A stretch of 56,029 nt of DNA, from positions 1-56,029 of the IMG/VR virus record IMGVR_UViG_3300050821_001245, one strand, 5' to 3'. Below are positions 16,705-41,097 of this stretch, one piece after another (the stretch's first letter is position 1; each line of letters starts with the position of its first letter). A model generated the notes under the pieces. It made no database searches, was not told where the DNA came from, and saw only the letters and a program-made list of their open reading frames with translations. Position numbers and translations under genes: made by a program. This DNA comes from a virus.

Positions 16705-17154
16705 TTAAGAAACCGGAACCGGCTTCCTCTCTTCGACAACCGGCACTTTCTTAGGCTGTGCGGCAGCGGCAGCCTTCGCAGACGCTTCGGCGTGCGTTGC
16801 ATCAAGAGCGTCCTTTTCCATCTCCTGCTTGTGAGCAAGTTCACGCGAAGCGGCGTTACGCTTCTGCGATTCGTTGTAGTCCTCGATCGAGAAATATCCC
16901 TGCGCCCGAACGTTGTGCAGATGATTTCTGCGAGCAGAGGCAACCGCCTCAACTGCCTGTTTTGCAGTCAACAAAATTTCGACTTGCCCAACGTCGGCAA
17001 TCGCAGGCTGCGCCAACGTGATGAGTTTTCCGGACACCGGATCAAGCGCAACTGCCTTGAGTCCGAACTGTGAAACTTCGACTTCACAGGCCGGTTCAAC
17101 TTTCAAGGCACCGAATTCTGTACCCTGACGGGCTACGTCTTCTTTGGTAAACAT
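16705..17154 (-). CDS. Hypothetical structural or late protein
   Basis: 149 aa with AGAAGGAACC before ATG. N-terminal two thirds are alpha/beta (VEVSQFGLKAVALDPVSGKL); the C-terminal third is an Ala/Glu/Lys-rich coiled coil with a Pro/Val tail (PKKVPVVEERKPVPVS). No domain recognised. Confidence 0.6.
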   Translation of the reverse strand: MFTKEDVARQGTEFGALKVEPACEVEVSQFGLKAVALDPVSGKLITLAQPAIADVGQVEILLTAKQAVEAVASARRNHLHNVRAQGYFSIEDYNESQKRNAASRELAHKQEMEKDALDATHAEASAKAAAAAQPKKVPVVEERKPVPVS

Positions 17155-17208
17155 GGGAAGGTTCCTTCTAGGTTAGTGTTGTCAGACTTACTATACTCTA
17201 TTGTCAGT

Positions 17209-17355
17209 TCATCCTCCACATCCCTTGCAGATTGGATTAGGTGGAGGTCCAGCAGGAGGTAACGCATCCGGTTCTAATGCGCCGTTGTGGTAGTGATAGT
17301 GTGCGGGAACGTTCGACCCCGCATCCGCGTCAATGAAAAACGCGCCCCAAGCCAC
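17209..17355 (-). CDS. Small Pro/His-rich protein
   Basis: 48 aa from GTG 17355. It overlaps the upstream membrane protein's 3' end. Sequence: hydrophobic AWGAFFID start, HYHYHNG centre and Pro-rich LPPAGPPPNPICKGCGG tail with a CxxC. The codon pattern and clean reading frame support it, but the ribosome-binding site is weak. Confidence 0.45.
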   Translation of the reverse strand: MAWGAFFIDADAGSNVPAHYHYHNGALEPDALPPAGPPPNPICKGCGG

Positions 17356-17494
17356 CGATCAGTTCAGAGGCGATCCAGAACGTGATTGCCAACCAACCAA
17401 AATGAACGCGAGTAGGGGTTGGCGGATTATAGGCAGCGGCAAAGACGGCGAACACAAACGCAAACGCCAAAAGGATCAACCCGAGATTCTGCAT
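17330..17494 (-). CDS. Small two-helix membrane protein
   Basis: 54 aa from ATG 17494 with a GGAG site. Two hydrophobic helices (GLILLAFAFVFAVFAAAY and HFGWLAITFWIASELIGGL) separated by NPPTPTRV. This pattern recurs in the lysis region of rhizobial phages to my recollection. It may be a holin or antiholin component; that is inference. Confidence 0.6.
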   Translation of the reverse strand: MQNLGLILLAFAFVFAVFAAAYNPPTPTRVHFGWLAITFWIASELIGGLGRVFH

Positions 17495-17497
17495 TTT

Positions 17498-17617
17498 TCA
17501 TCTCCATTGATATTCCCACCGAAGCTCGCTCAGCGCGTGCTCAGTGCCGAGAACTCCGCACATGATGGTGAAGCCTAGCAGGAACGCCAGAACCCGGCGC
17601 TTGATGGTCTCACTCAT
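17498..17617 (-). CDS. Small single-pass membrane protein
   Basis: 39 aa. ATG 17617 overlaps the preceding stop (ATGA). One membrane helix (VLAFLLGFTIMCGVLG) after a short basic N-terminus, then a charged tail ending WEYQWR. Function unknown. Confidence 0.55.
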   Translation of the reverse strand: MSETIKRRVLAFLLGFTIMCGVLGTEHALSELRWEYQWR

Positions 17618-17778
17618 ATGTGCCCGAACAGAACAAGGATAAGAACGATGACAAGGATCAGCCCAAGACCTCCTGTGCCATAGTGTCCGTACCCGTAGCC
17701 GTACCCACCACCGAATCCGCTGAAACCTCCAAGCAAGGCGATCACAAGGATGATAAGAACGATCGTTCCAATAGACAT
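17614..17778 (-). CDS. DUF3309-like Gly/Tyr-rich membrane protein
   Basis: 54 aa from ATG 17778 with AGGAGAACTCTC upstream. Two membrane helices flank a Gly/Tyr-rich loop (FGGGYGYGYGHYG). This is the layout of DUF3309, small proteins of Alphaproteobacteria (helix, G-Y loop, GGLGLILVIVLILVL helix). A host-derived gene captured into the phage lysis or membrane block is likely; function unknown. Confidence 0.65.
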   Translation of the reverse strand: MSIGTIVLIILVIALLGGFSGFGGGYGYGYGHYGTGGLGLILVIVLILVLFGHI

Positions 17779-17792
17779 GAGAGTTCTCCTTT

Positions 17793-18497
17793 TTACCCGT
17801 GACCACGCATAACCATGATCGTGACTAGGATAGAAATGACAGGAGAAGCGATTGCAGCAACCGCCATCACAACGGCGAGAAGCCGCGCGTTGCTGTCCTG
17901 CCTTCCCATCGTCTGACCGCCAGTTCTATTTTCTGTTGCCTGAATTGCGGAAAGAGTCGTAGATACCTTTGCTGTCGTGGCATCCTGCGACAACCTTATT
18001 TCATTCATGTCGCGAGTTAGCCTAGCCAGCGCATCTGACATCACTGGATCAGCAACGCTACTCTTTCCTGCCTGTGTAAACTGATAGGCTTCCAGCTTGC
18101 CGACGCGGGTATCGAATGTTCCTTGGATTTGCACAAGCTGCGTAGACACGAGAGTTGATGTAGTGCGAACCGACTCCGCAAGCATATCTCTGATGGTGTT
18201 CTGAAACTCCTGCCTAGTCTGCGCAAGCTGATCTATCCGAGAAGTCTCAGCGGTTCGCTGGGCATTCTGGAATGCAACTGTTGAATCCGAGAGTATTTTT
18301 ACATGATCCCGGACTGCCGATATTTCGGACAGAAGCAATTCCTTGAGGGAATCCCGCTGTGAATCTTGGTACTTGCTTTCAGCCCTGACGAGATCAAGAA
18401 CGTTCTTTGTCGGGTCGATTGTGGGGCGTCCGGCGTAATCAACAGGTATTCCCGAGATGCCGTTCGCCTCCTCAATCGAAGAACGAGTATTTTTCAC
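17793..18497 (-). CDS. Coiled-coil protein with C-terminal membrane anchor
   Basis: 234 aa from GTG 18497, which overlaps the lipoprotein stop as GTGA; a longer frame upstream is Cys/Arg-rich and antisense-like, so rejected. Residues 35-190 form a long coiled coil without Cys. A C-terminal membrane helix (LLAVVMAVAAIASPVISILVTIMVM) ends in RGHG. Coupled after a lipoprotein gene, this could act like a spanin or a membrane scaffold for lysis. It has no domain I recognise. Confidence 0.65.
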   Translation of the reverse strand: MKNTRSSIEEANGISGIPVDYAGRPTIDPTKNVLDLVRAESKYQDSQRDSLKELLLSEISAVRDHVKILSDSTVAFQNAQRTAETSRIDQLAQTRQEFQNTIRDMLAESVRTTSTLVSTQLVQIQGTFDTRVGKLEAYQFTQAGKSSVADPVMSDALARLTRDMNEIRLSQDATTAKVSTTLSAIQATENRTGGQTMGRQDSNARLLAVVMAVAAIASPVISILVTIMVMRGHG

Positions 18498-18862
18498 CGC
18501 GTAAAAGTTCCAGAGATTGCAACCGGACCAACGTTCGGGACACGAACGACGGCAACATTGACCGCCATCTGATTGACGATGCTTCGCCGTCTGGCACTCA
18601 GAACTTTTGGCTGCGGAGCAGCCGCAATCGCTGCACAGATGGACTCCGCAATCGACGCTGCGGCTGGCACAACAGAACTCACGCCGGGAATGAATGCAGC
18701 GATCGTTCCAACGGTCGGAATGAAGCCGCACACTAGATTTGCATCCGCCTGAACTTCAGCCTCAATTGCCGAGACTGTTGCTGCGTTGAATACTCCGGTT
18801 GTGCCGCAACTCGCGAGTAGAAGCGTTGAGGATGCGGCAATAATGGTGAAAATCCTCTTCAT
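18494..18862 (-). CDS. Outer-membrane-type lipoprotein
   Basis: 122 aa. Signal peptide with a lipobox LLASC (cleavage before C19), giving a lipid-anchored mature protein rich in Ala/Ser/Val/Pro. A hydrophobic Gly-rich region (FIPTVGTIAAFIPGVSSVVP) follows. In a lysis block a lipoprotein plus a membrane-anchored coiled coil (the next gene) recalls the o-spanin/i-spanin pair. That is inferred from layout, not sequence similarity. Confidence 0.7.
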   Translation of the reverse strand: MKRIFTIIAASSTLLLASCGTTGVFNAATVSAIEAEVQADANLVCGFIPTVGTIAAFIPGVSSVVPAAASIAESICAAIAAAPQPKVLSARRRSIVNQMAVNVAVVRVPNVGPVAISGTFTR

Positions 18863-19032
18863 TTTGTATTCTCCTTCTGTTGAACGTTGACGATAGCCGT
18901 TGCTATCGCAGTCACAAATGCAAGTAGCGCATCGTCTGACACCATCGAAGAATCAAACGACGAATAGTCGTCAAGAGACTTTCGGCCAGCCTCAAATCCG
19001 GCTTCTAGTTGTTCCTTGGTTGGTTGAATCAT
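18859..19032 (-). CDS. Small hypothetical protein
   Basis: 57 aa beginning in an ATGA overlap with the intein-bearing gene and ending in an ATGA overlap with the lipoprotein gene. Acidic N-terminus with EQLEAGFEAGRKSLDDYSS, then an Ala/Val-rich helix. It shows no domain match. Confidence 0.6.
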   Translation of the reverse strand: MIQPTKEQLEAGFEAGRKSLDDYSSFDSSMVSDDALLAFVTAIATAIVNVQQKENTK

Positions 19033-20735
19033 TGCTGAAGTCCTTTCAGGTATCTCGACAAATCATCGGAACTAAACCCTTCCGGGGTTAGTTTCGTGTT
19101 GCTGTTCAACGCCTCAAGGGACAGATACGAAAGTCCTTCATCCATATACACACCAACCCATCTTGGCGTTGCTTCCTGAACTCTGCCCCATGTGATGAAT
19201 AAAAAATTTCCGTTTTCATTGCGACCGACACAGTTGTGTACAAAGATGCCAGAGCTAACTGCAAAGTTGTGATACTTGGAAACCTCCATATCATACACAT
19301 CGAAGCGTCCGATACGTTCCTCGATGGCCACAACCTTATGATTGGCTAGATTTTGTATCGCGATTTTCCGTATCTTCTCAGCATACTCTGGATCAGAAGC
19401 AATTTTCGCTATTTTAGCTGCCTGCGCGATCTTAATGTGTTTCTTCCTATCGCTATTTGAAAAATTTACAGGACCATAAAGCAAACCGCTCTTTCTTGAT
19501 GCCTCTAAATTGTAAAATCCTTTGGCTCGGTGCTCTCGAAGTTTGCTGTTTGTCTTCAGATGAAGCACATGTCTTTTCCTAAATTCTGGGTTTTCCCAGT
19601 TCTTTATCATAGTCTCTCTGGACTTGGCTTTTCCTTCTTCTGATGTTGCATATCGTTTCAGCAAATCCGTCGATTCATTGTGAAGTTCGGTATGCTCTTG
19701 CCAAGACATCAACTGAAGATTGTCCGGAGAATTGTTTCTTTTGTTAAAATCTTTATGGTGTACGACGGCACAACGCTTCTTAGGTGAGGCTACAATTCTA
19801 TGCGTGTATTGCCATCTTTGAGAGGCTGGATGCATAGTCTCTTCATAACCAGACATTTCTTTCTTTGTGGAGAGCTGTCTGTATAATGGCATAAGAGACT
19901 GACCAACAACCAAAGAGCTAGCTTCGGCAAAGTTGCCAGATCGAAGCATTATAAAATGATCCGGCGTGCAGTCTAAGAACTCTCCGTTGTCTAGAAAAAT
20001 CCGGATAACCTTAGCGTCTTCTTTCGTGCGTCTAATGTTGGTAGCTAATGCCGGAACTACGTTTTGGCTTTCATCTAAAGAATAAACCCACTGCTCCGTA
20101 CCAACTAAATCTTTAATAGGAACTTCAGAGCCGTTCAGTAAGCTTATTTTTGTATCACCAGAAAGACATGGGACGTAATGACCTCCGACTGTCGTGTCAC
20201 CCGCAACAATATCCCACGGTTCTCCCGCGTCGAACTGCGCTTCTGCGCTTGACGGAATCTGAAAGCCACAACCACAAGCACCGAACAGCCAAGTAGCTAG
20301 TGCGAGTTCGTCAAGATCACCCACACGAAGCGCAGCATAAGCGTCTATCTTGTGACGTGCTCCAGTCGCATCAAGGATGCCAGTTTTCTGACGATATGCG
20401 GCGGCAACCTGCATATCGGTTCCCTGATCGGAATCAGGCTTTGCAGGATCATATCCGGTAACGGCGCTATAGTCCGAAAGAACGTCCTTAACTGTGAACC
20501 GTGAACGTGGCTGACCACCTACCATTGTCCAAAGCATGTGCTCGTGTGCAGCCCCGGCAAAGACACAGCAACTAACCGAATCATTCCCTAATCCGTGCCA
20601 GTTTCCATCAGCCATGAGATTTTCATGACCGAATGCCTTCGGAGGCGTTGGCAGAACATCGGCGTTGAAAACCATCGCAAACTTCAATGCGACAGTATTT
20701 CGCGCGGGCGTCTTTCCAAGTTTGTAGTTTATCAC
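19029..20735 (-). CDS. Papain-like cysteine peptidase interrupted by an intein
   Basis: 568-codon precursor. Extein (residues 1-189 and 502-568) resembles a phage C1/C39-like peptidase fold: NDSVSCCVFAGAAHEH carries the presumed nucleophile (C56 or C57) and TVGGHYVP the presumed His186, followed after splicing by CVGRNENGNFLFITWG, where the TWG resembles the NSWG of papain-like enzymes. The intein (residues 190-501) would excise to join HYVP to CVG. The host protein sits between the holin-like gene and the lipoprotein gene. Its substrate is unknown; wall-peptide or virion-protein cleavage are possible. Confidence 0.8.
   Translation of the reverse strand: MINYKLGKTPARNTVALKFAMVFNADVLPTPPKAFGHENLMADGNWHGLGNDSVSCCVFAGAAHEHMLWTMVGGQPRSRFTVKDVLSDYSAVTGYDPAKPDSDQGTDMQVAAAYRQKTGILDATGARHKIDAYAALRVGDLDELALATWLFGACGCGFQIPSSAEAQFDAGEPWDIVAGDTTVGGHYVPCLSGDTKISLLNGSEVPIKDLVGTEQWVYSLDESQNVVPALATNIRRTKEDAKVIRIFLDNGEFLDCTPDHFIMLRSGNFAEASSLVVGQSLMPLYRQLSTKKEMSGYEETMHPASQRWQYTHRIVASPKKRCAVVHHKDFNKRNNSPDNLQLMSWQEHTELHNESTDLLKRYATSEEGKAKSRETMIKNWENPEFRKRHVLHLKTNSKLREHRAKGFYNLEASRKSGLLYGPVNFSNSDRKKHIKIAQAAKIAKIASDPEYAEKIRKIAIQNLANHKVVAIEERIGRFDVYDMEVSKYHNFAVSSGIFVHNCVGRNENGNFLFITWGRVQEATPRWVGVYMDEGLSYLSLEALNSNTKLTPEGFSSDDLSRYLKGLQQ
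19233..20168 (-). other. Intein with embedded HNH homing endonuclease
   Basis: Residues 190-501 of the peptidase precursor (312 aa). Splicing block A is CLSGDTKISL at the start; block B is CTPDHF with TPDH (257-260); block F/G is DVYDMEVSKYHNFAV...GIFVHN followed by Cys502 (+1 nucleophile). The His-Asn end and Cys start are intact, so splicing should work. An HNH endonuclease lies at 326-352 (VVHHKDFNKRNNSPDNLQL with following H348). The insert is visibly AT-richer than its flanks. Confidence 0.85.
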
Positions 20736-21088
20736 GCTGTTGTGCCCTTCGCGATTTGTTCAACCTTGGCGGCATCTCCCGGAATTGGAGAAACCTTGGA
20801 GGCGGAAGCATCATCTGACACAGCAACCGCTGCCAATGCTTGAGTTGCTTGTCTGTTAACGGTGACGGACGTAACACCAGGCATTGCAGCAACAGCTTTG
20901 ACCGTTGCACTCTGACTGGTTACAACAGCAAGAACCGAAGCAAGAATGGAGTTAGCGAGACTGGCAACCGAGATTGCCGTCTTGGCAACGTTAGGTCCAA
21001 ATAGATCGGTCAATTGAGACGCAGAACCAATCAGCACGCCAAGGATGGCGATGATGATTGCCATAACCTGATTTCCATTGAGATTCAT
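20732..21088 (-). CDS. Holin-like membrane protein
   Basis: 118 aa. Residues 8-28 form a membrane helix (VMAIIIAILGVLIGSASQLTD) and a second hydrophobic stretch follows (ISVASLANSILASVLAVVTSQ), leading to a soluble domain with the recurring phrase VKAVAAMPGVTSVTVN. This matches a holin-like family I recall in rhizobial phages. It directly precedes the peptidase gene and follows the two wall hydrolases, as expected for a lysis cassette. Confidence 0.65.
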   Translation of the reverse strand: MNLNGNQVMAIIIAILGVLIGSASQLTDLFGPNVAKTAISVASLANSILASVLAVVTSQSATVKAVAAMPGVTSVTVNRQATQALAAVAVSDDASASKVSPIPGDAAKVEQIAKGTTA

Positions 21089-21118
21089 GATGCTATTCCT
21101 TTTCCAAAAGAAGAAGTG

Positions 21119-21610
21119 TTATTCGTGCGCCCACTGAAAGTGCATCGGGTCTTGTCGGCTGTGAAAATCACCGCCCCAGAACGCACCTTGTTTCTTGAAT
21201 GCCGCAATGACTACCGGAGGCATATGACTTATCTGACTGCGGTTCATTGGATTGTGTTCAGGGTCTAGGTCGATCGCCGCCGCAAAGGCGTGACAGGACA
21301 AACGGGACGATCCACGAATCGGACGATAGTTGAAACATCCTCCATACCACTGCATATTTATGGCGTTGATAACGTCTTGGCTTTTTCCGTAGTACGCCCA
21401 GATGTCAGAAAACACTGCATTCATCGCCTCCAAGGTCTTGGCATGAACCTGGAATTTGGTAATCGGAGTGATGTGTCCATTGTCGTCCTTGTAAGACATT
21501 TGCCAAGGCGGCGTGAACGTCACCAGATTATCAATCGGCCAATGAGGATGACTAGGATCGCCATAAAATGCAGTAAGAGCTGACGTGTCGTCGTGAGGCC
21601 AATCTGTCAT
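21119..21610 (-). CDS. M15-type peptidoglycan peptidase
   Basis: 163 aa. Matches the D-alanyl-D-alanine carboxypeptidase/L-Ala-D-Glu peptidase fold of phage endolysins: SCHAFAAAIDLDPEHNPM carries the H and D zinc ligands, and the C-terminal DPMHFQWAHE carries the second catalytic His. There is no signal peptide. It directly follows the GH108 muramidase gene (stop/start adjacent at 21610/21611), so the two likely form a combined endolysin system. Confidence 0.8.
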   Translation of the reverse strand: MTDWPHDDTSALTAFYGDPSHPHWPIDNLVTFTPPWQMSYKDDNGHITPITKFQVHAKTLEAMNAVFSDIWAYYGKSQDVINAINMQWYGGCFNYRPIRGSSRLSCHAFAAAIDLDPEHNPMNRSQISHMPPVVIAAFKKQGAFWGGDFHSRQDPMHFQWAHE

Positions 21611-22168
21611 TTACGTTCCAATCATCGCAATCGCGCGTGCAGTAGCCCGTACATTCCGAGCAGACCAACCCTTGCCATAGCCGGTTTTCGTAATCGGGCT
21701 AGGATTCCAATTCGGGCTTGTGTGTTTGACCGCTATCCAAGCGGCGCTTAAGGCCGTCACCAAGGCTTTAGGGTCGGTCGTAGCAACCTTTACCAAGGTG
21801 TCTGCATCTACAACCCCAGTCAGGGGAAACATCCCTAGCGCCAGTTGCAGGGCGTTTGGACCGCCTGTAAGGCCAAGATTAACCGAAACGTCTAGCAGCC
21901 GGTAGTCTACCCCTCCCGGAAGGTCGTTGAAACGAAGCGGTTCCGCAAAGGCGGCGGTATAGAACGCATCTACGGTTGCCGGTGTAAGGGCTTTCAGATC
22001 GTCTATCGTGGCTGGTGGTAGACCTAATTTCTTGCGGTAGTCGGACAGGGCGGTGATGGAAACGCCAAATCTCGATCCGTGGCCGGGTTCCCCTGCACTT
22101 ATATTCAGTTCTTCGCCCTCATCTTCTCGAATATACGCAAGCGAAATGGCAAGGTTTTTTTGCATCAC
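21611..22168 (-). CDS. GH108-type endolysin (muramidase)
   Basis: 185 aa. N-terminal IREDEGEELNISAGEPGHGSRFGVS matches the glycoside hydrolase 108 catalytic region, with E16 or E19 near the usual catalytic Glu; the C-terminal part (LLDVSVNLGLTGGPNALQLALG, then VVDADTL) matches the putative peptidoglycan-binding domain 3 seen in these enzymes. GH108 enzymes cleave the glycan strand. There is no signal peptide, so it depends on the holin. Start overlaps the upstream fibre gene (ATGA). Confidence 0.8.
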   Translation of the reverse strand: MMQKNLAISLAYIREDEGEELNISAGEPGHGSRFGVSITALSDYRKKLGLPPATIDDLKALTPATVDAFYTAAFAEPLRFNDLPGGVDYRLLDVSVNLGLTGGPNALQLALGMFPLTGVVDADTLVKVATTDPKALVTALSAAWIAVKHTSPNWNPSPITKTGYGKGWSARNVRATARAIAMIGT

Positions 22169-24069
22169 GAGCCGTAATGTTCTTCCGCTTCAATCCACCC
22201 GCCCGCTCCATTACCTCCACCACTACCGCTTGCTCCAGCCGATCCACCACTACCGCCAGTCCCAACAGCAAACGTATAGGTTCCTGCTGGAGCTGAAATG
22301 CTTGTGTCGCACTCTGCGCCAGAACCACCGCCGCCGCCTGTGTTAGCGGTTGCACTCGCGCTAAGACCGGCACCACCGCCGCCGCCTCCCGTGTTGGTGC
22401 CAGCGTTATTTCCAGCACCGGCTCCTGAGTTTCCGCCGCCTTCACCGCCACCCATACCGCCGCCTACGTTAGTCGAACCTGAAACCGCCGTCGCTGATGC
22501 ACCACCTGAGAATCCTGCGCGAGGAATATCGCATGTGCCACTACCAGTGACTCCACCACCGGCCCCGCCTGCATTTGATCCGCCCCCGGCTCCACCACTA
22601 GCCTGATAAACCGGAGTTGTGCAGGCTGCGCCTGACGTGTTCAGACAAGTGTTGTTGCCACCCGTTCCGCCACCTAAACCTCCACCACTTCCGGCACCAC
22701 CGCCGCCGCCGCCCTTTATTCGGAATTTGACCCAAATGACATTGGCTGGTGTGGTGTAGGTTCCCGAACCGTTAGCTCCAAAACCTCCGCTGTGAGATGT
22801 TCCAGTAACGTAGGAAGTCGTCGGATTGGTACGGCGCGCTGCCGTTAAGCCCAACGTTCCGGCAGCAATAGACAGACCATTTCCGGGAACAACTTCGCCT
22901 AGCGTTCCTGCATTGTTGTATTCTATATCGCCGCTTGTTCCGCTCGTGATGCTCGTGGTTCCAACCGCTATAGCAGAGGCTACCGATCCCGATGCCTGTA
23001 GTTGTCCAGAACCGTTGACCGTGATTGTCGAGTTGTCGATTTTGACCGCAGCATATTGCGTCGTGCTGGTGGAAAGATTGACTGACGTACCACCGATCTG
23101 AAACGTTCCGCTCGCGTTCAATGTGCCGGGCACAGTGACAACTCCAGCGGTTGTCATCGTGACCTGATTGCTTGTTCCAATCTTTGCGCTGTCAGCCCCT
23201 ATAGCCCAAGAATTTGTTAATGTGACATTGGAGCCGGGTGAAGATGCTATAAAGTATGAACCGAAATAGTTCGTAAACACCGTCGCGCTTGACGCAGCAA
23301 TTGTATTGCCGCCCCACAAGTCAGTATAGGCCGTTGCAACCGTACCGCTGGACGACGTGTCGGTTAAGGTAGCCGCAATGTTCTTGTATCGAATTCCGCT
23401 CGTGGTCCAAGCGGCGGCAGAGATGTTTCCAGCAAGTCCAAAACTCGTGCTTGTGACCGTTGTTGCTCCGGTGAAATTACTAGTCCCGGAATAGGTATTG
23501 TTTCCTGATAGCGTGATGCCGCCGCCCACAGTCCCCGATAGTGTCGGAGACGCGCTCATAACGACGTTCCCGCTCCCGGTTACGGTGTATTCCCCAATCA
23601 CTCCAGAATTGTCGAACAGAACCTTTGTATTTGCTCCGCTGACAATCGTTGTTGTTCCGATTGTAATTGATGAAGCAGTCGCAACGATCGAACAGGTTGA
23701 ACCAAGCGTGCAGGTTACGCCGTTGACTGTTGTTGCCGGGTTTACGAGGTCAGCATTGGTCACAAGACCAGTCGCCGTGAATGACGTTGTAACCGTAGCC
23801 CCACCCGAAAGCGTCTGAAGGGCTGTCCAGTTATGTGCCGTTCCTAACAGGCCAAGACATGCCCACGACGACGTATAGTACGGAACTGAATCGTTGGTTG
23901 CGCAAAGACCCTGCTGCATCACCGATGCAATTGTCGTATCGGTTGGCGCGCGAGCGCTTGAAGTGCCATTTCCGATTACATGACCGGACGGAATGATTTG
24001 TGCCGAAACCGGAATTGACGACAGGATCGTCAGGAACAGAGCACAAATGATGCTGCGATATGTTTTCAT
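22165..24069 (-). CDS. Exported Gly-rich fibre or receptor-binding protein
   Basis: 634 aa from ATG 24069 (an upstream GTG is possible). Residues 1-24 are a signal peptide (SIICALFLTILSSIPVSA). The middle is a Thr/Ser/Val-rich repeat region like trimeric fibres (SGNNTYSGTSNFTGATTV). The C-terminal 200 residues are extremely Gly-rich (GGGGGGAGSGGGLGGGTGG and similar), a composition seen in polyglycine-helix fibre tips that bind bacterial surfaces. The Gly-rich end sits at the C-terminus where the tip would be. Stop overlaps the endolysin start. Confidence 0.7.
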   Translation of the reverse strand: MKTYRSIICALFLTILSSIPVSAQIIPSGHVIGNGTSSARAPTDTTIASVMQQGLCATNDSVPYYTSSWACLGLLGTAHNWTALQTLSGGATVTTSFTATGLVTNADLVNPATTVNGVTCTLGSTCSIVATASSITIGTTTIVSGANTKVLFDNSGVIGEYTVTGSGNVVMSASPTLSGTVGGGITLSGNNTYSGTSNFTGATTVTSTSFGLAGNISAAAWTTSGIRYKNIAATLTDTSSSGTVATAYTDLWGGNTIAASSATVFTNYFGSYFIASSPGSNVTLTNSWAIGADSAKIGTSNQVTMTTAGVVTVPGTLNASGTFQIGGTSVNLSTSTTQYAAVKIDNSTITVNGSGQLQASGSVASAIAVGTTSITSGTSGDIEYNNAGTLGEVVPGNGLSIAAGTLGLTAARRTNPTTSYVTGTSHSGGFGANGSGTYTTPANVIWVKFRIKGGGGGGAGSGGGLGGGTGGNNTCLNTSGAACTTPVYQASGGAGGGSNAGGAGGGVTGSGTCDIPRAGFSGGASATAVSGSTNVGGGMGGGEGGGNSGAGAGNNAGTNTGGGGGGAGLSASATANTGGGGGSGAECDTSISAPAGTYTFAVGTGGSGGSAGASGSGGGNGAGGWIEAEEHYGS

Positions 24070-38840: not shown

Positions 38841-40856
38841 TTATCTTCTGAATTGAGGCGGCGGAAACTGGAAAGGCAACTGCATCTGTTGCGGTGGCGG
38901 TGGTCCTTGAGGCTGTCCCGGAATTCCCTGTTGCTGTTGCGGTGGTTGTGAAGCCTGCGACACCTCTCGCAACGTATTGGCGACAAACTGTGCTGCGCTC
39001 AAATGTGTATCAGCCATTGCACCGTGCGCGTTGGCCATCTTCTCGGTTGCTGTTGCTCTTGCCTGTTCTGCACTGGCCAAGGTCTTTTCAACTTCGGCCG
39101 CTGTCTTAGCATTCTTTCCAGCCATACCCTCGACTTGCAGTTTCTTGACGACTTGCTGCAACGGGTCTTGCGGTGGCGGTTTCGGAGCCATCATCTGCAA
39201 CAGTCGGGTTTTCTCCGACCGGGGCAGGGTTGACATTTCAATGATGACTTGCGGCGGGAAGGTGCCCGGTGGATAACCTCGTAATGCGTCCGAAGTCTCC
39301 TGCATCATCGAGGCAATGTCCGGACCTTCCTCTAGGATAATATCAACGTCCAGCGAACCAACCGCGTTGACAATCATCGGCCTGCCGAACGGGTCCATAT
39401 CCAATCCGTTGAGCTTTAAGAACTGCGCCAAGCCTTCGTTGTTGTTGACCCTAATCCATCTCTCTGCCGTCCAGTGCCGTTGCACCGCGTTCCAGATACC
39501 TCTGTAAACCTCAAGTTTCCATGCCCGATAGGACAGGCTGAACGGTCCAAGTTCGGCCATGCCGGGTTGACGTAGCAACTCAATTGCCCGACCTGACAGG
39601 TTGCCGATCGGGCCCGCACCAGTCATCGCCGCTATGTTGGAATTGGCAAAACCGTCCAGCTCGTTCTTGGCGTCCTCAGTGAACGCAGAGAACACCGCAA
39701 TATCCGGCTTGGTATCATCAAACTTGAATTGCTTGCCGGGATTGATTTCCATAAATCCGTCGTGGCGAGCGGCTTCACGTCTGGAAATCTCAACATCATC
39801 AACCGCGCCTTTTTCCGATATGATGCGACGGGAGTTAGCTAACGCCAGCGTCTTTGACTTGCCCTGGTTAAGCGCGTCCTGCGGACCTTTCAGGTTTCGG
39901 ACAAGTCCGTAGCGGTCGCCATCGTGGTCCACCGCACAGGAGAACATCCGGAACGAACGATCACTCTTGCCCTTGTCGTCTTTGAATGGAGAAATCCCCT
40001 GATCCAGCAACACCGTTGAAACGTAGAACGCCCAACACCAATTGCCTTTGTGCTTGTACCAGTGCTCGACCAACCGAAGCCGCTTGGTAGTCGTTACTAC
40101 CCATTTGTACTCCCGATCTGCGTTCGTCGTTAGATCGCTATCGCCTTCAACCAGACCGCGAAGCAATTCTTCCTTGTCGGGGAACAATTCAATCGCGGCA
40201 TCTACATCAAGCCATTTGGCAATGCCTTCATAGCGAGCGTCCTTGAAATCCAGCCGATACGACTTCGGATCATAGAAGTATTCATCTCCAATGACCCAAG
40301 GTAATGCAATGTCCGGATCGCCTTTGTCGCCTTGCGTTAGAACCAATTGAACGCCGGCAATGCCATCAATGCTCGCCTGCAACAGACACCACGGATCAAT
40401 CGTCTTGAACTCATTGGCGTCCAGAACGTAGCGCACCGACTGCGTTGCAATCTCTGCGCCCTGTTCGGACTTTGGCGTGCGAGGTAATGCTTTCGGGTCT
40501 GACCTCTGGCGCTCAAGCAATCCGACAATGCCATTGAGTTTACGCGCAACCCGGTTCCAGGTCTGGATTGGTTGGTGTCTTGCGCGAAGGATTCGGATTT
40601 GTTCCGCTGTCCACATCGCACCATGATAGTAATGCCGGGAGTCTTTCTGTTCCTCGATTTCATCAACCTTCGTATCGAGGTAGTTGATGTATTGCTGACG
40701 CAACGTTCGGACGGGAAGGAACTGTTCCTTGTCATCATCCCCGACAACAGCCTCTCGCTTGTCCTCAACCGGATTGTTGTCCTGAGCAATCAACGGTGAA
40801 AGCCGCGCTCTGTCGGCGCGTTCCAGTTCAAGCGGTGAGATTTCGGAAAGCGGCAT
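38841..40856 (-). CDS. P22-type portal protein
   Basis: 671 aa from ATG 40856 (AAGACC upstream; longer frame rejected). N-terminal helical region, then RHYYHGAMWTAEQIRILRAR, PIQTWNRVARKLNGIVGLL and SIDGIAGVQLVL follow the pattern of the P22 gp1 portal family. A long helical region and a Gln/Pro-rich tail (QPPQQQQGIPGQPQGPPPPQ) end the protein. Close in length to P22 gp1 (725 aa). It has the downstream portal/coat order of podoviruses. Confidence 0.8.
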   Translation of the reverse strand: MPLSEISPLELERADRARLSPLIAQDNNPVEDKREAVVGDDDKEQFLPVRTLRQQYINYLDTKVDEIEEQKDSRHYYHGAMWTAEQIRILRARHQPIQTWNRVARKLNGIVGLLERQRSDPKALPRTPKSEQGAEIATQSVRYVLDANEFKTIDPWCLLQASIDGIAGVQLVLTQGDKGDPDIALPWVIGDEYFYDPKSYRLDFKDARYEGIAKWLDVDAAIELFPDKEELLRGLVEGDSDLTTNADREYKWVVTTTKRLRLVEHWYKHKGNWCWAFYVSTVLLDQGISPFKDDKGKSDRSFRMFSCAVDHDGDRYGLVRNLKGPQDALNQGKSKTLALANSRRIISEKGAVDDVEISRREAARHDGFMEINPGKQFKFDDTKPDIAVFSAFTEDAKNELDGFANSNIAAMTGAGPIGNLSGRAIELLRQPGMAELGPFSLSYRAWKLEVYRGIWNAVQRHWTAERWIRVNNNEGLAQFLKLNGLDMDPFGRPMIVNAVGSLDVDIILEEGPDIASMMQETSDALRGYPPGTFPPQVIIEMSTLPRSEKTRLLQMMAPKPPPQDPLQQVVKKLQVEGMAGKNAKTAAEVEKTLASAEQARATATEKMANAHGAMADTHLSAAQFVANTLREVSQASQPPQQQQGIPGQPQGPPPPQQMQLPFQFPPPQFRR

Positions 40857-40857
40857 T

Positions 40858-41097
40858 TCAGGTCTTTGACATTTTCGACATTGCGCGCGGTGAAATCCGG
40901 CCCATCTTCGCAAGCCGTCCTGCGTGCTTTGCGACTTCCTTCATTTCTTCCGCGTGCGTCATTGCCATATTCTTGACTTCCGCCATCAGCTTCTTGTCGC
41001 CCACTATCTCGCCAGCACGTTTCATTGTTTGCATCGCGTCGTGGACTTCCCAATGTCTATCGGGATGGCTGATCGGAACAGACTTACGCTTTGCCAT
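40858..41097 (-). CDS. Small helical protein with SHOCT-like tail
   Basis: 79 aa from ATG 41097 with AGGAGAA upstream. Helical and basic, ends GRLAKMGRISPRAMSKMSKT. That tail shares a pattern (K/L-x-K-x-G-x-[IV]-S-x-[KR]) with three other proteins of this block. Function unknown; lies directly before the portal gene (two bases between stop and ATG). Confidence 0.6.
   Translation of the reverse strand: MAKRKSVPISHPDRHWEVHDAMQTMKRAGEIVGDKKLMAEVKNMAMTHAEEMKEVAKHAGRLAKMGRISPRAMSKMSKT

Follow-up and report, generated by a model that had tools for sequence, protein, structure and literature searches.

A predicted HNH class-1 intein in a papain-like, lysis-associated phage peptidase whose relatives carry putative inteins of unrelated types at the presumed catalytic cysteine

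Introduction

Inteins reside mostly in proteins of replication, packaging, and nucleotide metabolism. Class-1 inteins with an HNH endonuclease, exemplified by those of phage RNR, phage TerL, and bacterial GyrB and by the NCBIfam model RtcB_rel_intein2 (NF052663), combine blocks A, B, F, and G with an HNH domain. In the accessible part of a study of mycobacteriophage inteins, those of TerL and other proteins occupy several independent sites in active centres, carry homing endonucleases, and are sporadically distributed; the exteins named there are terminases, RDF, nucleotidyltransferases, and others, with no peptidases or lysis proteins among them (PMC5050341). Native intein sites average 8.3 Å from active-site residues, compared with 21.1 Å for other Cys, Ser, and Thr residues (PMC3359363), and insertion beside active sites is typical of inteins according to both sources (PMC5050341, PMC3359363), in agreement with what a first-pass annotation of the present locus had assumed.

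We describe here a locus from IMG/VR virus record IMGVR_UViG_3300050821_001245 (the window, meaning the whole stretch of 56,029 nucleotides that was analysed). With high confidence we propose that it encodes an HNH class-1 intein within a papain-like peptidase of a lysis cluster, and that this intein splices to leave an intact enzyme and homes into empty alleles; the sequence evidence consists of intein motifs, an exact junction, intein-free relatives, same-site alleles, and a shared tract consistent with recent transfer. The arrangement is of a well-known kind, but we have not found a papain-like lysis-cluster peptidase reported before as the host: our literature search turned up no papain-like or lysis peptidase that carries an intein, which is weak evidence, subscription papers lying mostly outside the search. 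The locus would thus extend the range of intein hosts to a papain-like, lysis-associated phage peptidase, and its main interest lies in the apparent presence of unrelated inteins at both catalytic residues of one family.

Results and Discussion

Anatomy of the precursor and its intein

The precursor is an uninterrupted 568-codon frame on the minus strand (19029..20735), which begins with GTG and whose start overlaps the stop of an upstream gene for a small membrane protein (GTGA). Homologue alignments and a structural model assign residues 1-189 (20169..20735, minus strand) to the N-extein, which holds the presumed oxyanion Asn51, the presumed catalytic Cys57, and His186 (in GGHYVP); Pfam and NCBIfam profiles assign residues 190-501 (19233..20168, minus strand; 312 residues, 936 bp) to the intein; and residues 502-568 with the stop codon (19029..19232, minus strand) form the C-extein, which starts at the +1 Cys502 and contains an invariant ITW516G motif. 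The first-pass annotation had placed an intein in this frame four residues past His186, and the numbering proves exact (His186, Tyr, Val, Pro, Cys190): the junction reads GGH186-Y-V-P189|C190...H500-N501|C502-V-G, and the joined flanks read GGHYVPCVGRN.

All the splicing residues are visible (C190, T257-P-D-H260, H489, H500, N501, and the +1 C502), and the profiles bear out the annotation with scores above their cut-offs. Specifically, i) the N-terminal splicing half, or Hint region (19854..20168, minus strand; its boundary with the endonuclease is approximate), matches TIGR01445 intein_Nterm over residues 190-263, beginning exactly at residue 190 (3.5e-10), and Pfam Intein_splicing (2e-17; 63.9 bits against a cut-off of 35.8), with block A as C190-LSGDTKISLLNG and block B as T257-P-D-H260; ii) the endonuclease insert (19344..19853, minus strand, bounds approximate) matches Pfam HNH_3 over residues 323-348 (1.3e-6, above cut-off) and several PHROG HNH endonuclease families, and its HNH motif is complete, V-H326-H327-x-D-x-N...N-N-S-P-x-N-L...H348...H352 (HHxDxNxxNNSPxNL..H..H), followed by a basic helical tail; and iii) the C-terminal splicing half (19233..19343, minus strand), with blocks F and G reading VYDMEV-SKYH489-NFAVSSGIFVH500-N501, matches TIGR01443 intein_Cterm over residues 479-502 (2.8e-7), like TIGR01445 beyond its curated cut-off. 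The splicing motifs of a class-1 intein are thus all present (a block A Cys, a block B TxxH, and a C-terminal His-Asn followed by a +1 Cys), and the insertion is missing from homologous exteins. Solved inteins (DnaE, RadA, and PolC) match both ends of a two-sequence profile, the best at 7.2e-7. A structural model of the precursor (pLDDT 66.5 overall) predicts the extein parts well and the intein part with low confidence, so that the intein fold rests on the sequence profiles. Judged from the sequence, a chance match is excluded.

The closest named model is RtcB_rel_intein2 (2.3e-42 over residues 185-502), and tblastn matches include inteins in phage ribonucleotide reductase, phage terminase, and plasmid gyrB. 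The window's intein shares the blocks and the HNH domain of these elements, but it has an insertion site of its own in a papain-like peptidase, and the extein parts of the RtcB model are unmatched. A related intein also lies in a phage protein that is itself unrelated and, judged by eye, resembles a portal protein (L013:2509-4632; L numbers denote our loci).

By analogy with this class, C190 would attack the scissile bond after translation, the chain would move to C502, N501 would cyclise, and the exteins would be ligated at HYVP-CVG, giving an intact 256-residue peptidase of the phrog_19005 family. We consider it very likely that this particular copy splices. A decayed intein in a dead gene would be compatible with the origin of the record, a metagenomic virus contig in which splicing is predicted from sequence alone, but is quite improbable: all 568 codons are open, every motif and HNH residue is kept, and same-site relatives at 50% identity retain the same residues. 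A self-splicing intron was considered and rejected, the frame being open throughout and positions 17000-24000 matching no Rfam family.

Intein-free relatives and the empty site

We surveyed the family by scans that yielded about 100 viral contigs and 25 genome loci; the survey is incomplete because its largest scan covers the best 80 of 242 relatives. Among the matches listed, the intein is missing from about 120 related loci, and wherever the site is readable no insert interrupts the His motif, bar four loci that carry an intein at either the His or the Cys site (L012, L048, L062, and L064). The exact empty site HY[VI]PC occurs in at least 10 loci. The closest empty relative among the matches listed, L063 (62% identity over 252 residues), reads GGHYIPCVGRNSAGNF (GGHYIPCVGRN), and GGHYVPCVGR is found in L053, L054, L012, and a Rhizobiales MAG (L098). 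The intein-free homologues that the first-pass annotation had proposed to look for therefore exist and confirm the insertion point, and the spliced junction HYVPCVG that it had predicted stands unbroken in several of them.

These relatives also bear on whether the segment might be a native, fixed Hint-type autoprocessing domain that cleaves and does not splice. A Pfam Hint module does give a weak match that falls short of its cut-off (5.5e-5; 23.3 vs 29.7 bits), but almost all homologues do without the segment and run continuously across the exact junction, while the +1 Cys, penultimate His, and terminal Asn are all in place and an HNH endonuclease is carried along; we regard such a domain as extremely improbable and retain the reading as a mobile intein.

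At the +1 position, 9 of 75 aligned members have Cys and the others mostly Val, Leu, Ala, or Ile, so that only part of the family could be invaded at the His site with no change of residue. An intein-only scan found no carriers beyond L062 and L064 among the matches listed; searches by sequence pattern brought up no additional carrier at either the His or the Cys site. Among annotated phages the extein has a single distant match, MW202816.1, named as a cysteine protease; the remaining matches are inteins in other proteins. Another relative, L003, appeared to stop at GGHYVP as though an assembly had broken at an intein; this candidate was rejected, since the full record has an unbroken 265-residue frame and the stop was a retrieval artefact. 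A search across the order of Methylobacterium jeotgali, covering 397 genomes, found no intein-bearing prophages; one genome of that order has an intein-like N-terminal splicing region in a 957-residue frame (L142, G182:C30:139940-140218).

The host protein

The extein matches phrog_19005, a family of unknown function, end to end (9.5e-33); members that we examined are mostly free of inteins, and the PHROGs annotation is not that of a peptidase. An AlphaFold model of intein-free L063, built with 75 intein-free sequences, is of high quality (pLDDT 94.5, pTM 0.92). Its best PDB match is xylellain (Foldseek 2e-10; VIA-align Z 21.2, 2.7 Å, 211 residues), and papain-type enzymes and zymogens, procathepsins included, follow at Z 16-19. 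In this model the insertion point comes after residue 185, within the strand (178-189) that bears His182. Four residues, Asn47, Cys53, His182, and Trp200 in L063 numbering, are the same in all 75 members; by order and spacing we take them to be the counterparts of papain Gln19, Cys25, His159, and Trp177.

With xylellain and the cathepsin/papain enzymes (MEROPS C1) the host protein thus shares the predicted fold, the invariant Cys, His, and Trp, and an amide residue at Cys-6, but it differs in its low identity (about 15%), in having Asn in place of the oxyanion Gln, in the papain Asn175 position, where 69 of 75 members have Val or Ile and one has Asp, and in that Pfam, Peptidase_C1 included, gave no match for three intein-free members. 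The protein is therefore predicted to have a papain-like fold but is not assigned to standard C1 membership, the catalytic Asn (in most members) and the oxyanion Gln of C1 being replaced. The earlier description as papain-like stands as regards the fold; catalysis is uncertain because the papain Asn175 position is Val or Ile in most members. On balance we think it probable that the spliced protein is an active peptidase.

Same-site alleles and mobility

An intein occupies exactly this site in two further virus contigs, L062 (3300048762_000055) and L064 (3300038457_000033); it is 50% identical to that of the window, has the same key residues, block B T257-P-D-H260 among them, and contains an additional helix-turn-helix-like segment. 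The two contigs are largely unrelated in the stretches compared, yet they share a tract of 2,250 bp with a single mismatch (L062 3310-5559; L064 offset by +9) that contains the intein (L062 3547-4644). Before the tract, the two contigs are 66-80% identical over the 5′ part of the gene and show no relationship further upstream; past the tract, identity is 73-95% and then ceases. The tract looks like the product of recent homing or co-conversion. An extein tree places the window with L063, which is free of the intein (SH-aLRT 100), and groups L062/L064 with the likewise intein-free L032/L057; a single clade of window, L062, and L064 is rejected (p-AU 0.023). In both the window and L062 the G+C content of the intein is 10 to 15 points below that of the N-extein (41.6% vs 52.4% in the window; 45.9% vs 61.3% in L062).

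The nearest relative of L062 with an empty site among the matches listed, L032, carries Ile at +1; over the first 60 bases past the insertion it is 75% identical to L062, as against 98-100% at 180-300 bases, a pattern suggestive of, and no more than suggestive of, entry of the +1 Cys of L062 together with the intein. At the DNA level, the endonuclease would cut empty alleles at an HY[VI]PC-type site, and repair would copy the intein and its flanks into the cut allele; that the endonuclease of the window's intein is active we consider likely.

The same-site alleles are few, namely the window and two others among the matches listed, and L062 and L064 may reflect one recent transfer or ordinary phage recombination. 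Ordinary phage mosaicism, in the form of lysis-module exchange independent of any endonuclease, is a possible though less favoured source of the shared tract: homology on both sides (66-95% identity) would suffice for generalised recombination, but the tract covers the entire intein with flanks on each side, and intein carriers are scattered over the extein tree. The choice between mosaicism and homing concerns how the intein moves, not whether it is one. The first-pass annotation had taken the HNH nuclease as a sign of mobility, and this idea gains support from an allelic intein common to two divergent contigs in a near-identical tract and from the extein tree; the window's intein is, on this comparative evidence, probably mobile.

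The virus record of L062 also has, in a separate 1184-residue frame (G007:C1:20776-20934), a weak match (2.6e-4) to the N-terminal half of the intein, possibly a second intein in that phage.

Unrelated inteins at the catalytic cysteine

Two other members carry inserts at the presumed catalytic Cys. In L012 (IMGVR_UViG_3300037342_000011) a 335-residue intein (L012:3157-4161; Intein_splicing 2.8e-12, intein_Cterm 4.5e-5) is placed between NDKYGC and CVWAGAAHE, and the His site is empty (HYVPCVGRN). Since the insertion directly precedes the presumed catalytic Cys, that residue would itself be the +1 splicing nucleophile. In L048 (IMGVR_UViG_3300022745_000628) a 348-residue insert (L048:1954-2997; LAGLIDADG_3 2.2e-5) lies one residue before the catalytic Cys and ends in ISGN|CCVWAGAAHE, with Gly and not His as the penultimate residue; intein-splicing profiles gave no match to this insert, and we assign it as an intein by its position, its motif-like ends, and its homologues.

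Three different intein types, those of the window, L012, and L048, thus appear to have reached two catalytic residues of phrog_19005-type peptidases. Clustering at catalytic residues is expected in kind, given the TerL precedent and the distances cited above; the new part, to our knowledge, is the host protein. Within this one small family, a same-site allele that bears traces of recent transfer can be set against empty sites at 50-62% identity and against the unrelated inteins at the catalytic Cys, a natural comparison that makes homing and the idea of an active-site refuge directly testable. L012, with its catalytic Cys as +1 nucleophile, would be a clean model for splicing-dependent activation of an enzyme. 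We raise as an unlikely further step that the family is a repeated target at its catalytic residues whose inteins, if splicing is slow or conditional, serve as built-in zymogen switches for lysis; were this true, catalytic competence in L012 would arise only at the last splicing step.

Lysis context and the timing of splicing

Upstream of the peptidase gene and in the same direction lie genes for a small protein that is hydrophobic near its N-terminus (20732..21088, minus strand; no family match, and holin-like by position and composition only), an M15 peptidase endolysin (21119..21610, minus strand; Pfam Peptidase_M15_4 3.9e-14, phrog_17001 endolysin 3.2e-20), and a GH108 muramidase-type endolysin (21611..22168, minus strand; Pfam Glyco_hydro_108 2e-9, phrog_315 endolysin 1.5e-10). 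In L062 the peptidase gene is likewise preceded by an M15-type lysin-like frame with a peptidoglycan-binding-like start and by a small membrane-type frame, both recognised by eye. Endolysin families are the commonest PHROG matches among the neighbours of relatives, and in L045 (2260-3966) a 569-residue frame joins a phage lysozyme and PG_binding_1 to a papain-like domain fused behind them. From context, namely the adjacent pair of endolysin genes and the lysozyme fusion in one relative, a role for the peptidase in host lysis is probable, where the mature enzyme may cleave peptides; for phrog_19005 this suggests the function of a papain-like peptidase in lysis.

The first-pass annotation had gone further and suggested that the precursor is inactive, so that lysis or maturation could be timed by splicing. 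Such a timer, in which a late-infection condition triggers splicing and releases the activity, would accord with the lysis cluster and with the L063 model, in which the intein splits the strand bearing the catalytic His, and three reports describe inteins elsewhere that splice conditionally (PMC6195587, PMC5790916, PMC7360933). The evidence nevertheless leaves this proposal unsupported, and we consider it highly doubtful: the presumed catalytic Cys57 and His186 both lie within the N-extein; we found no regulatory feature, and the sequence gives no sign of conditional splicing; five phage terminase inteins assayed elsewhere spliced rapidly (PMC5050341); and nearly all relatives function free of the intein, from which it follows that timing is not a general need and that the protein's function does not depend on the intein. 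A mobile intein that splices to the intact enzyme remains our preferred reading.

Elsewhere in the window, positions 38841-40913 encode a P22-like portal protein (Pfam P22_portal 3.8e-79), which suggests a P22-type podovirus.
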